A DNA stretch of 64,000 bases from Massilibacillus massiliensis (lineage in GTDB: Bacteria > Bacillota > Negativicutes > FLKF01), in assembly GCF_900086705.1 (NCBI RefSeq), contig NZ_LT575483.1, positions 3,391,533 to 3,455,532 of the forward strand. The letters are read 5' to 3'. The translations under genes were made by a program, and so were the position numbers. The notes under the pieces were generated by a model, which saw only the letters and a list, made by a program, of their open reading frames with translations, had not been told where the DNA came from and ran no database searches. Below are positions 34,179-49,877 of this stretch, piece after piece (position 1 is the stretch's first letter; every line of letters starts with the position of its first letter).

Positions 34179-34863
34179 GTTGCAAATTAGGGGCGTTATA
34201 ATTCCAAATAACTATCAGGAAATTTATGATTATTTCGGAATTGAAGCAACAAGTCCTAAAAATGTGAGCAATTTTTTGCAGGCTCTAGCAGGTGAAAGTG
34301 TCGACGTTGAAATTAATAGCCCGGGTGGCGATGTTTATTCTGGATCAGAAATATACACAACATTAAAGGCATATCAAGGCACTATCAATATTAGAATTGT
34401 GGGAATGGCAGCCAGTGCCGCAAGTGTTATTGCTATGGCTGGTGATACTATTTATATTTCACCGACAGCGCAGATCATGATTCATAATGTTTCAAGTTAT
34501 GCAGGTGGGGATTATAGAGATATGCAGCATGCTGCCGATGTTCTTAAGGGCATGAATATGTCAATATGTAACGCCTATTTATTAAAGACTGGTATAGAAA
34601 AAGAGACTTTACTGGATTTAATGAATAAAGAAACATACATGAATGCACAGCAGGCGAAGGAACTTGGTTTTGCTGACGAAATACTTTTCGATAATGAAAA
34701 TAAACTTGTCGCAAGTGCCTGTCCTTCTGTATTGTTACCACCAGAGGTAATAAATAAGGTGCGGAATTTATTAGTTGGACAAAAAAATAATGATCGAATG
34801 GAAGCTCTAGCCGAAAAGGAACGGTTAGAGCTTTTAAAATTAAGGGGGAAAATAAATGAATAA
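34165..34863 (+). CDS. ClpP-like prohead protease
   Basis: The roughly 232-residue protein has the ClpP fold: INSPGGDVYSGSEIYTTL, the catalytic serine in MAASAASVIAMAGD, and the histidine in IMIHNVSSYAGG. It probably matures the prohead by removing the capsid delta domain. ATG 34165 or GTG 34162 is the start; both sit within an AAAGGGGGTGAT Shine-Dalgarno. Confidence 0.93.
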   Translation: MKIPKLQIRGVIIPNNYQEIYDYFGIEATSPKNVSNFLQALAGESVDVEINSPGGDVYSGSEIYTTLKAYQGTINIRIVGMAASAASVIAMAGDTIYISPTAQIMIHNVSSYAGGDYRDMQHAADVLKGMNMSICNAYLLKTGIEKETLLDLMNKETYMNAQQAKELGFADEILFDNENKLVASACPSVLLPPEVINKVRNLLVGQKNNDRMEALAEKERLELLKLRGKINE

Positions 34864-36118
34864 AGAAAAGTATTTGGCTAAAAGGAATGAATTACTTATT
34901 CAGGCTGAAAATTTTATCAATGAAGGAAAGATTAAAGAAGCCCAAGAAATCCGGAATCAAATAGAAAAATTGGACACGGATTTTGAAGATGCAGCTAAAG
35001 AAATGGCAAATTTATCTGCATTGCAAAAGGGAACTGTTGTATTAAACCTTGTCAATAAGTCAGTAAAACCTAATGGCATGCAAACAGTAGATCAAATAGG
35101 GTTTAATGGTCAGAATCAGAATAAAGAAGAGTTTACCGCCGAAGAAAAAAAGCTATATAAGAATGCATTTGCAAAGCACTTGATGGGCGTTTCACAGGAT
35201 AAAGACGAAAGTGAAATGTTTTCCCGTATGAACACTAAATTTAGTAATGCAGTGCAAACCGAAGCAGCGCATACGGTTTTAGTTCCTGAAACCGTAAGGG
35301 ATCAGATTTGGCAAGAGATAGGAGAAGCACATCCTATTTTAAATGATTTGGCTATGACTTTTGTTCCGGGAGACTTGACGTTAATCAAGGAAGAGAATTC
35401 ATTGAGCAATGCAGATGGATCAAATGAGGAAGACGAAGCGGGGGACGATGATGAACTTGACTTTGGTGAATTAAATTTAACAGGCTGTGAATTGTCAAAG
35501 GCGATTACAATTAGTTGGAAATTAAAGAAAATGTCAATGGATGCTTTTTTGACGTACATAACTAAGAAAATTGCTGAAAAAATGGGGAATGGTCTGGCTA
35601 AATGGGTTGTTGAAGGGAAAGGAAAGCCTGGAACAAATGATACTTGGAAACCACAGGCAAGAGGTATAGCCGTTGCATTAGAAGCGGAGACTTCTACTCC
35701 ACAAGTCATTTCTTATTCAGATAGCGATCCGATCGTTTATAAAAAATTGACGGCGGCACTTGCGAAAATGAAATCAGGTTATTTAAGTGGCGCGGCTATC
35801 TATGCACAGAATGACATGATATGGAATGTACTTGCTAATATTGTTGATGGAGTTGGTCGACCTATTTTTGTACCTGATGCAAATGCAGGCGGTGTAGGAA
35901 GAATTTTAGGATTGCCAGTTAAAGAGGAAGATGCTGTTTCAAAAGGGGAAATTGTGATTGGTAATGTTGGAAAGGGATATGCAATTAATGCTAATGAGAA
36001 TATCACAATGTACCAAGAAGATCATGTAAAACCTAGAAAAACCGACTATATGGGATATGCCATTATTGATGGTGATGTATTGACGACGAAAGCATTTGTA
36101 TTGATAAAAAAAAATTAA
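34856..36118 (+). CDS. Major capsid protein, HK97 fold
   Basis: The 420-residue protein has an N-terminal helical scaffolding (delta) region to about residue 100, then the HK97 core (VLVPETVRDQIWQEIGEAHP, GAAIYAQNDMIWNVLANI, GLPVKEEDAVSKGEIVIGN). It follows portal and protease. An acidic insertion lies near residue 190 (SNEEDEAGDDDELDFGEL). The gene ends in a run of nine A, which could allow -1 slippage into the next reading frame. Confidence 0.95.
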   Translation: MNKEKYLAKRNELLIQAENFINEGKIKEAQEIRNQIEKLDTDFEDAAKEMANLSALQKGTVVLNLVNKSVKPNGMQTVDQIGFNGQNQNKEEFTAEEKKLYKNAFAKHLMGVSQDKDESEMFSRMNTKFSNAVQTEAAHTVLVPETVRDQIWQEIGEAHPILNDLAMTFVPGDLTLIKEENSLSNADGSNEEDEAGDDDELDFGELNLTGCELSKAITISWKLKKMSMDAFLTYITKKIAEKMGNGLAKWVVEGKGKPGTNDTWKPQARGIAVALEAETSTPQVISYSDSDPIVYKKLTAALAKMKSGYLSGAAIYAQNDMIWNVLANIVDGVGRPIFVPDANAGGVGRILGLPVKEEDAVSKGEIVIGNVGKGYAINANENITMYQEDHVKPRKTDYMGYAIIDGDVLTTKAFVLIKKN

Positions 36119-36372
36119 ATACCGTAAGCCTTGAAAATGCTACATTCAGTAAAGCCGCTGCCGCTGACGTAGTGCTTACAGTATCAGGTAACGCAGTGAG
36201 TAATGTAAAAAATGGTAGTGCCATTGTAAATGTTGATAATTATACTGTCGCAGACGGAAAGGTGATTTTTAAGAAAGAATATTTGGCTACGTTAGCAAAT
36301 GGTGATAAAAAAATCACTGTCGTTATGGCGTCAGGCGATAGTCTGAGTGTAATTATTACGATTACAGATTAG
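36112..36372 (+). CDS. X2/Ig-like domain, probable -1 frameshift extension of the capsid protein
   Basis: In the -1 frame relative to the capsid gene, 86 codons run from the A9 tract to TAG 36370-36372. They encode LENATFSKAAAADVVLTVSG and DNYTVADGKVIFKKEYLATL, a complete X2-like beta-sandwich pattern. A separate start at GTG 36172 would remove the first strands and has no ribosome binding site. The heptamer A AAA AAA at 36106-36112 is in the phase required for slippage. The fusion would be 505 residues. Confidence 0.75.
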   Translation, partial: KLNTVSLENATFSKAAAADVVLTVSGNAVSNVKNGSAIVNVDNYTVADGKVIFKKEYLATLANGDKKITVVMASGDSLSVIITITD

Positions 36373-36392
36373 TCTCTAAGAGGTGATTAATA

Positions 36393-36692
36393 TTGACATT
36401 AGAAGACGTAAAAAATTATTTGCGTATTGATGAAGATATTACCGAAGATGATATCACAATCCAATCGCTTATTACAGCCGCACAGCAATACATCACGAAC
36501 CAAACGGGCAAACAGTATGCAGATGATGAAATTTGGAATGTCTGCATTGAGCTACTTGTCTCCCATTGGTACGATACCCGGCAACCAAATCCAACGAAGC
36601 CCGGAACTCTTTCTGAATATCCGCACAGCATAACTGCAATTATTACACATATAGCATTATGCGGTGCATATCCGGAGGAAGTAAAAATATGA
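36393..36692 (+). CDS. Head-tail connector protein, gp6-like
   Basis: The 99-residue protein matches small HK97 gp6-like connectors: LEDVKNYLRIDEDITEDDIT, ITAAQQYITNQTGKQY, and a helix with HWYDTRQP. TTG 36393 follows AGAGGTGAT. It would form the ring under the portal. Confidence 0.88.
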   Translation: MTLEDVKNYLRIDEDITEDDITIQSLITAAQQYITNQTGKQYADDEIWNVCIELLVSHWYDTRQPNPTKPGTLSEYPHSITAIITHIALCGAYPEEVKI

Positions 36693-39546: not shown

Positions 39547-39966
39547 ATGTCATTGATTGATAAACTTTTACAAACAGACGCGAAAAAACTTACGGAAATA
39601 CCAACGAAAAAATTTGAAATAAAACGTCTTTCAGAAAAAATAAAAGAAAAATTTGAAATGACGTTAATCGCACTTACCCCAGAGAGATACGCTGAAATAC
39701 AGCGTATGACGCTTGAATTTAGCAAAAAGGGCGGGATTAAAGATGTAAATATGTTTGATCCTAAAATTTTAACTGTGCTTGATGGCGTCAAAGATCCAAA
39801 TTTGAAAGATCCCAAAATGCTGGCTCATCTTGGCGCAGCAACGCCAAAAGATCTTGTAACAAAGCTCTTTTTATCTGGAGAAATTGACGACATCAAAGCG
39901 GAAATAGATGAATTATCCGGGTACGATAAGGAAGATGAGGAAGTAAATGAAGAAGTAAAAAACTAA
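39547..39966 (+). CDS. Tail assembly chaperone, short form
   Basis: The 139-residue protein (XkdN-like) has an acidic C-terminus and ends EEVKN. It binds the tape measure protein during tail assembly. The heptamer A AAA AAC sits at 39957-39963, directly before the stop codon and in zero-frame phase for -1 slippage. Confidence 0.88.
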   Translation: MSLIDKLLQTDAKKLTEIPTKKFEIKRLSEKIKEKFEMTLIALTPERYAEIQRMTLEFSKKGGIKDVNMFDPKILTVLDGVKDPNLKDPKMLAHLGAATPKDLVTKLFLSGEIDDIKAEIDELSGYDKEDEEVNEEVKN

Positions 39967-40142
39967 TTGAAACGGATTGGGAAGCACGTTTATTGTACGC
40001 CCTTTTCCGTTTTCATCATAAAACACCTTCCGAAATTTATTGGATGCCGCTGGGAGAACGGCAAATTTTATATAGTTTTATGCGGTATGAACTTGAACAA
40101 CGTTCCAATGAAAATTCGTCACCGGATGGGGGCGGATTGTAA
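39963..40142 (+). CDS. Tail assembly chaperone, -1 frameshift extension
   Basis: In the -1 frame, 59 codons follow: LIETDWEARLLYALFRFHHK and TPSEIYWMPLGERQ. This is the conserved second domain of frameshifted tail chaperones. It ends at TAA 40140-40142, sharing a base with the tape measure ATG. The fusion would be 198 residues. A 7-bp stem (39970-39976 with 40006-40012) starts six bases after the slippery site and may stimulate slippage. Confidence 0.88.
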   Translation, partial: LIETDWEARLLYALFRFHHKTPSEIYWMPLGERQILYSFMRYELEQRSNENSSPDGGGL

Positions 40143-47634: not shown

Positions 47635-48333
47635 ATGACAGAACAGGAATTTATAGAAATCCTTGAAGACTTATTTCCAGACGAATTGCTAGGTTATATA
47701 AGACCGAATGCTGGTATAGAAAATACGCTTGAATTCAGTGATTATTTTCCTCAATTTATTCAAAAGGATAAAGTATGGTATAAACAAATTAATTCTGTAC
47801 TTATGCGCTTGTTATCTAATGATTGTAACTTAAAAAAATGGATTGACCAGCTTATGGACGCACTAAACAAAGAAGATTTTGAGCTAGCAACACAAACCAT
47901 AAAGGGCTTAATGAGTGCGCAAGACAAAAAGAAATTGGATGAAATAGAAAGCGGAGCACAGGTAAATCAAAATGCCTTCGGCGTAATAAAAATTGGTGAT
48001 AAGACCTATACCGCAAATGAAGTGCAAGACATTTTGAATTTTGTTGCCGGGAACAATGTAGAAATAAAACTTGCTGATAATGGAAAAGTCACGATCAATG
48101 TTAAAAATATTTCCGATGGGGCAGAAGTCAATCAAAATGCGATAAGTAAGATTCTAGTTGGTACATCAACCATCAATGCGACAACCAAAGAAGATAGTTT
48201 GACAATAGCAGCTGGGAAAATGATTACTATAAATGCTGATACAAAAGAAAAGAAAGTAACCATTGCCGCAAATATTTTCAATGCAGATGGTCAATTAGTT
48301 TTTCCAGATGGCAGTAAAATAAGGGTGATTTAA
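47635..48333 (+). CDS. Tail fibre protein 1
   Basis: The 232-residue protein has an N-terminal baseplate-attachment domain with RPNAGIENTLEFSDYFPQFI and VLMRLLSNDCNLKKW, shared with the gene at 48936. The middle contains two fibre repeats (GAQVNQNAFGVIKIG and GAEVNQNAISKILVG). It should form a trimeric shaft. Confidence 0.75.
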   Translation: MTEQEFIEILEDLFPDELLGYIRPNAGIENTLEFSDYFPQFIQKDKVWYKQINSVLMRLLSNDCNLKKWIDQLMDALNKEDFELATQTIKGLMSAQDKKKLDEIESGAQVNQNAFGVIKIGDKTYTANEVQDILNFVAGNNVEIKLADNGKVTINVKNISDGAEVNQNAISKILVGTSTINATTKEDSLTIAAGKMITINADTKEKKVTIAANIFNADGQLVFPDGSKIRVI

Positions 48334-48935: not shown

Positions 48936-49877
48936 GTGATAGGTTTGACTAATGAAGAATTTGAAGCATTGAAAAAGCAACTATTGCCGCAGATCGTTGA
49001 AGGACAAACAAGACCAAACGAAATGATTGCAATCGATTTAGAATATGCAGCTGACTTCCCGCAACTTATCGAAAATGACCCCGTTGACGCGGCAACTTTT
49101 AATCTAATGCTTGTAAGGCTATTGTCCAATGATAATTGGCTGAAAAATAACAATTTAGATAAATCACAATACAGGCAGCCAGAAACGCAATATCAAAATG
49201 GTGCAATCGTAAGTGATCCAAATTTGCCAAGTTGGGCGCAGCTAGAATGTATAGAAGCCGGGATAACTTCAAATGAAAAATTAGGAATTACTATAGTAGC
49301 GATAGGACAGCAAATTACGGACGGCTCTTGTAAGTGGACGATTCGCCATAAGGGTGAAATGCATAATGTCGGTGACATTTGGCTGTATGATGGAGAATTT
49401 AATGCTGACGGATTCCCAATTCATAAAATTACGGGACTAGCAATGTTAGATTGTCATATTTGTGATGGAACGAACGGAACAAGAAATTTGATCAATCAAT
49501 TTATCATGGGAGCAAATGCAGGTAGTATTGGGAGTACGGGCGGAACAAACAGCGTGAGTTTGTCTGTAGATCATATGCCAAATCACGCCCATACCGCGAG
49601 TGCGTGGACTGATGCGCAGGGGGCGCATACACATACAACCAATGTTTGGAATGGAAGCACTGGAGGCGGGAAAAAAGGATATAGTTTTGGCAAAACGGGT
49701 GACTATAGTCCAGGACAATACGTAAACGGTAATCTTTGGATTAATACACCCTCTACAAATTCAGTTGGCGCGCATGGTTATAATGTTGGAGTCAGTGTTG
49801 CCGCTAATGGCGGAGGGCAGGCATTTGACAATAGACCTGCTTACGTTGGTTTAGCATATATCAAAAAAATATATTAG
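48936..49877 (+). CDS. Tail fibre protein 2 with C-terminal collar-type domain
   Basis: The 313-residue protein begins with the same attachment domain as fibre 1 (RPNEMIAIDLEYAADFPQLI, MLVRLLSNDNWLK). It ends with histidine-rich SVDHMPNHAHTASAWTDAQG and FDNRPAYVGLAYIKKIY. That end is the metal-binding tip seen in T4 gp12-like and Mu gpS-like fibres. GAGGTGAT precedes the start at 48936. Confidence 0.82.
   Translation: MIGLTNEEFEALKKQLLPQIVEGQTRPNEMIAIDLEYAADFPQLIENDPVDAATFNLMLVRLLSNDNWLKNNNLDKSQYRQPETQYQNGAIVSDPNLPSWAQLECIEAGITSNEKLGITIVAIGQQITDGSCKWTIRHKGEMHNVGDIWLYDGEFNADGFPIHKITGLAMLDCHICDGTNGTRNLINQFIMGANAGSIGSTGGTNSVSLSVDHMPNHAHTASAWTDAQGAHTHTTNVWNGSTGGGKKGYSFGKTGDYSPGQYVNGNLWINTPSTNSVGAHGYNVGVSVAANGGGQAFDNRPAYVGLAYIKKIY

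Follow-up and report, generated by a model that had tools for sequence, protein, structure and literature searches.

Immunoglobulin-like (Ig-like) domains are widespread on phage particles (PMC5009743), and the Ig classes that a review describes on phages are Big_1/2, I-set and FN3 (PMC9022992). Coat proteins that gain an Ig-like extension by frameshifting are known from T3, A2 and other phages (PMC5009743). The locus considered here is the major capsid gene of a prophage in Massilibacillus massiliensis, situated in a stretch of 64,000 nucleotides (contig NZ_LT575483.1, positions 3,391,533 to 3,455,532) that is called the window and to which the coordinates below refer; the capsid gene, its extension and the associated RNA element are all on the forward strand. 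Judging from sequence comparisons, a CBM_X2 domain is very probably fused to this capsid protein by -1 programmed ribosomal frameshifting. In the literature searched, no paper connects X2 with phage capsids. The X2 family, PF03442, was met together with the word phage only in a profile table adapted from Fraser 2006, where it is listed as DUF291 (PMC4332376).

The capsid gene (34856..36118) encodes a 0-frame product of 420 amino acids. It is of the HK97 type, with matches to PF05065 Phage_capsid (E 8e-29) and phrog_10 (E 4e-45), an AlphaFold model whose structural matches in the PDB are HK97-fold capsids, and portal and protease genes as neighbours. Its 3' end reads TTG ATA AAA AAA AAT TAA. 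The gene thus ends, as the original prediction from the letters alone had stated, in a run of nine A (A9, 36106-36114) that contains the slippery heptamer A_AAA_AAA (36106..36112) in phase with the capsid frame. The 0-frame stop codon TAA (36116..36118) comes one codon past the heptamer. The -1 frame extension occupies 36112..36372 and consists of 86 amino acids and a stop codon (36370-36372), giving an expected fusion of 419 + 86 = 505 amino acids, which agrees with the roughly 505 residues calculated earlier. The predicted junction of the fusion, LIKKKLNTVSLE, would be cut by trypsin, and IKKK-LNT as opposed to IKKN-LNT would reveal the codons on which the slip occurs; for the X2 domain itself, LNTVSLENATFSK can serve as a tryptic marker peptide.

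The extension had been described as a complete X2-like domain, and the profile search bears this out with a match to PF03442 CBM_X2 (E 7e-14, 52.1 bits against a curated cutoff of 28.9), the sole match to this domain in the genome. A profile search with the extension also matches 1EHX, a scaffoldin X2 module. The AlphaFold2 model is a confident beta-sandwich (pLDDT 92.9), and its best PDB matches in Foldseek (TMq about 0.8) are endoglucanases of the trimodular, X2-bearing kind. The locus has what is found in frameshift-made Ig-like virion decorations: an extension with an Ig-like fold (PF03442, AlphaFold, Foldseek), no translation start of the extension's own, and a shift site just ahead of the stop codon of a major virion protein gene.

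Relatives of the capsid gene were drawn from genomes of the same class, annotated phages and viral contigs. Scans with single capsid sequences gave one locus each, and alignments were required to gather the relatives. The main classification reduced 118 capsid loci to 64 clusters at 90% nucleotide identity. X2 follows the capsid gene in 19 clusters, and in all 19 it is in frame -1 and preceded by an in-phase A_AAA_AAR one to two codons before the 0-frame stop, compared with an in-phase A_AAA_AAR in 2 of the 45 clusters without X2 (Fisher p 2e-14). Of these two, L007 has a -1 frame that meets a stop immediately, and L025 is a remote homologue without a domain. X2 in frame 0 or +1 after a related capsid gene was never found in the 64 clusters, nor was a related phage found in which the domain has its own ribosome binding site. 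Later scans added five loci (L137, L177, L178, L210 and L244), in which X2, the -1 frame and the heptamer are arranged as in the 19 clusters. The relatives extend down to about 43% capsid identity to the window. The -1 open reading frame (ORF) is under purifying selection (dN/dS 0.05-0.32 in the compared pairs), and the number of X2 repeats in the extension varies from 1 to 3. Annotated phage records searched with the window X2 gave no match; the relatives came from genomes and viral contigs.

Four loci that were considered as in-frame capsid-X2 fusions (L147, L155, L162 and L165) were rejected, as none of them is a recognisable capsid. The Lactobacillus phages iA2 and P2.4 (L008 and L009) have capsid homologues 35% identical to that of the window. 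In both, CCCAAAA stands in phase one codon ahead of the stop, and the -1 extension is short, at about 22 amino acids.

Downstream of the heptamer, after a spacer of 7 nucleotides (36113..36119), lies an RNA element of two helices. Helix 1 joins 36120..36129 to 36174..36183, with 95.7% of alignment cells paired and two-sided change in 5 of 10 pairs. The adjoining helix 2 joins 36139..36149, with one base bulged, to 36164..36173, with 90% of cells paired and two-sided change in 4 of 10 pairs. A similar fold, with a bulge of 9 nucleotides on the 5' side between the helices, follows the heptamer in 14 cassettes, and an unguided RNAalifold prediction gives the same two-helix structure. Over the alignment of these 14 cassettes 92.9% of cells pair and 9 of 20 pairs show two-sided (compensatory) change; the covariation score is 0.423, whereas shuffling yields 0.196 and sliding the partners no more than 0.116. 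At column pair 21-78, to take one case, eight cassettes have A-U, four have G-C and two have C-G. In five of the nine covarying pairs both bases occupy third codon positions, and conservation of the protein does not explain such covariation. The pairing of GTAAGC (36124-36129) with GCTTAC (36174-36179), proposed earlier as a weak distant one, does exist and makes up the inner six pairs of helix 1; it is not weak, being part of a covarying element of 20 base pairs. A pseudoknot involving the 9-nucleotide bulge was considered but seems unlikely: visual inspection revealed no partner, and the conserved part of the bulge codes for a conserved Pro.

A structure arising from the X2 protein sequence should occur in every X2 gene. 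X2 matches elsewhere in the phylum, mostly in large proteins unlinked to capsids, were used as controls. The mean z score against a null of synonymous recoding is -1.6 where X2 belongs to a -1 capsid extension (counting later repeats), compared with -0.2 for X2 in tail proteins and 0.0 for X2 in large proteins (Mann-Whitney p 7e-6). For the second X2 repeats of L079 and L086, which share the -1 ORF but are distant from the heptamer, the scores are +0.9 and +0.4. A covariance model spanning 36106-36191 gives 80-90 bits on the -1 cassettes (training sequences included) and at most 29 bits elsewhere; over 381 genomes of the same class it gave five matches, all of them X2-capsid cassettes already known. 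Only the first X2 past the heptamer has the RNA element; tail-protein, cellular and later tandem X2 lack it, which does not fit an origin in the X2 protein sequence. No Rfam family came near its gathering score in the region 35900-36400.

Several observations weigh against a frameshift at this site. AAAAAAR is common in the A+T-rich window, with 153 occurrences observed and 164 expected by chance, and the heptamer by itself is unremarkable and proves little. No Shine-Dalgarno-like stimulator was seen in the 30 nucleotides before the heptamer. The fold of the window's own RNA is only marginally stronger than that of synonymous recodings (p = 0.08), the 14-sequence alignment was built from cassettes already sharing this downstream sequence, and three other X2 groups (L035/L099, L036/L100 and L095/L097) fold differently downstream. 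Furthermore, clusters of related capsid genes are not independent events. The significance of the heptamer comes from the relatives, which conserve the arrangement, and not from the window alone. In 18 of 18 relatives tested the fold is stronger than in synonymous recodings (p 0.001-0.036). The -1 frameshift is strongly supported because the frame, the heptamer and the RNA structure are conserved and the -1 ORF is under purifying selection.

In L035, L099, L122 and L133 a hairpin that is GC-rich and very stable (GGCTCCGGAAATTCCGGAGCC or similar) lies at least 35 nucleotides past the heptamer. It sits in a Gly/Ser-rich linker ahead of X2, differs from the two-helix element and may be another stimulator.

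The X2 extensions seem to have been swapped between capsid genes by recombination at the slip site, because nucleotide identity jumps to about 1.0 there. L095 and L097 have capsids with 69% amino acid identity and extensions that are 99% identical, and at the heptamer their nucleotide identity rises abruptly, from about 0.6-0.9 to 1.0. The same step is seen in L099/L122. A separate HK97-type capsid lineage (L137, L177 and L178; PF05065) carries the same heptamer and the same region of RNA element plus X2. The identity steps and the second lineage point to a portable cassette of heptamer, stimulator and domain, with its joints at the heptamer. X2 on an HK97 capsid by frameshifting had been called much less familiar than other Ig-like decorations; the arrangement recurs as a cassette in many phages. 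The balance of the sequence data tilts towards a self-contained display cassette (heptamer, stimulator inside the early domain, X2) that is common to phages infecting this class of bacteria and to related metagenome phages. It would move between capsid lineages via recombination at the heptamer, and would let a capsid gene ending in lysine codons gain a partly displayed surface adhesin without losing the normal capsid protein.

In the proposed mechanism ribosomes would read AAA AAA and then meet the RNA element 7 nucleotides past the heptamer. Most would end at AAT TAA, one codon further, and yield the 420-residue capsid protein; some would re-pair in the -1 frame on the two lysine codons and yield the 505-residue capsid-X2 fusion. 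Frameshifting of this kind in cells, at whatever rate, would bring the fusion into virions if it co-assembles with the 420-residue form, and part of the capsid subunits would then show X2 on the head surface, available to a ligand. Cellulose or cell-wall binding has been reported for other X2 modules (PMC7410926), and a displayed X2 would most likely bind weakly to glycans, of the cell wall or others.

The genes around the capsid gene bear on where such a domain might be displayed. Upstream are terminase, portal and a ClpP-type protease, and downstream are a head-tail connector, a tail sheath and a DUF2001 tail tube; the sheath and the DUF2001 tube near the capsid gene identify the element, on the basis of its gene content, as a contractile-tailed prophage. 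Siphovirus-type relatives carry X2 in frame at the C-terminus of the tail tube protein (PF06199 plus PF03442; L063:7312-8013, L108:6620-7375, L137:5792-6505 and L178:4838-5584), frequently on contigs that also have a capsid X2 in the -1 frame. In the window phage and in L015/L280, its nearest relative, there is a sheath and the tube is plain. Ig-like domains on a tail tube would clash with a sheath (PMC8718954), and the plain tube in the sheathed phages fits this published clash, leaving the head as display surface.

Surface binding as the function of X2 is nevertheless about evenly poised. Even if the frameshift is right, the domain might serve head assembly or stability, or be neutral, which is judged possible rather than probable. 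The title of a paper from 2004 by Garcia (via PMC5009743) terms the frameshifted head protein of A2 an essential capsid component, and the tail extension of SPP1 is dispensable (PMC8718954); both count in favour of this alternative. However, the in-frame X2 on the tail tube of siphovirus relatives and the variation from 1 to 3 repeats fit display better than a constant part in assembly.

The remaining alternatives concern how the X2 frame is read. An improbable one is transcriptional slippage, in which RNA polymerase would insert an extra A at the A9 run and a share of the mRNAs would encode the fusion in frame. The run in the window is long enough for this to be plausible, and such slippage may add to the fusion in this phage. 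The A9 tract is, however, peculiar to the window. Its conservation in related prophages, together with that of the frame relation, had been proposed as a check; the frame relation is conserved, but the runs of the relatives are of 6-8 A, mostly 7, and what is kept is the in-phase A_AAA_AAR. The run is of 6 A in L015 and L244, both with AAAAAAG, and A_AAA_AAG is reported as the most shift-prone of the heptamer series in E. coli (PMC5009743). The conserved in-phase heptamer and an RNA element at ribosomal spacing also speak for the ribosome rather than for the polymerase.

It is more improbable still that X2 is made as a separate protein by re-initiation or from a start of its own after the capsid stop, close to which the X2 frame does begin. 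The first ATG, GTG or TTG in the -1 frame is GTG at 36172, 20 codons in and within the X2 domain, and no Shine-Dalgarno-like sequence precedes it; the extension thus lacks a start and a ribosome binding site, as originally proposed. None of the 18 extensions examined has an early candidate start in the -1 frame with a preceding Shine-Dalgarno-like sequence (0 of 17 besides that of the window), and a separate protein would leave the conserved heptamer unexplained. An explanation of the frame break by a sequencing error, or by a recent mutation of a gene that had capsid and X2 in one frame, is hardly credible despite the error-prone nature of A9 runs, and is already refuted because the frame relation is conserved in all X2-bearing relatives, in unrelated assemblies with shorter A runs.

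Two other features of the window were noted. At 39547-40142, an XkdN-like tail assembly chaperone ORF (phrog_389) ends GTA AAA AAC TAA and is a second candidate for -1 frameshifting, with an in-phase A_AAA_AAC at 39957-39963 and a -1 frame open for 59 amino acids to the stop at 40140-40142 (phrog_2722); this candidate is of the classical lambda gpG/GT type. In the tail-fibre region, the proteins encoded at 47635-48333 and 48936-49877 seem on visual inspection to resemble each other at the N-terminus (MTEQEFIEILEDLFPDELLGYIRPNAG and MIGLTNEEFEALKKQLLPQIVEGQTRPNEM) and may reflect duplication of a part used for attachment.

The closest described system is Lactobacillus phage A2 (gp5A/gp5B), where a PF05065 capsid gene likewise has a -1 slip one codon before the stop and an Ig-like extension of about 85 amino acids (genome record; PMC5009743). 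However, A2 slips on CCCAAAA into Big_2, whereas the window uses A_AAA_AAA into CBM_X2, and the two capsids have no detectable sequence relation (E 1.2). The tail protein of A2 has an Ig-like domain in another frame past the stop, whereas the X2 tail proteins of the window relatives are in frame. The window locus resembles A2 in its mode of action but is a distinct system. Gene 10 of phage T3 also gives two coat products by -1 frameshifting, one with an Ig-like extension (PMC5009743), but, as compared from the literature, without a reported X2 domain. In SPP1, frameshifting gives some copies of a major virion protein an Ig-like domain (gp17.1*; PMC8718954); there the protein is the tail tube and not the capsid, the shift is +1 and the domain is FN3.

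On the side of the signal, the -1 cassette of E. coli dnaX and its bacterial relatives has an A_AAA_AAR heptamer followed by a stem-loop (PMC5009743). The window shares the in-phase heptamer and has a covarying RNA structure 7 nucleotides away; it differs in lacking a visible Shine-Dalgarno-like stimulator within 30 nucleotides upstream, in its larger two-helix element with a 9-nucleotide bulge, and in that the product is an added domain. On the side of the domain, the CBM_X2 modules of cellulases and scaffoldins (1EHX, 4V2X and 5XRC) are of the same sequence family and fold as the window X2, but there they occur in frame within secreted enzymes and scaffoldins and not on virions.

The varied use of frameshifting for Ig-like domains has been ascribed to chance out-of-frame landing (PMC5009743). 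In the present case the -1 frame, the heptamer and the covarying stimulator do not change between diverged phages, nor between the two capsid lineages or the two tail types, and this constancy, together with the in-frame tail-tube X2 of the relatives, argues for selection for partial, not full, display on the capsid. The cassette would be a small, naturally occurring means of displaying a domain on part of the subunits of HK97-type capsids. Frameshifted Ig-like capsid extensions are already known, and the X2 domain with an RNA stimulator of its own looks like a new version of them, the new points being the RNA element and the exchange of the cassette.
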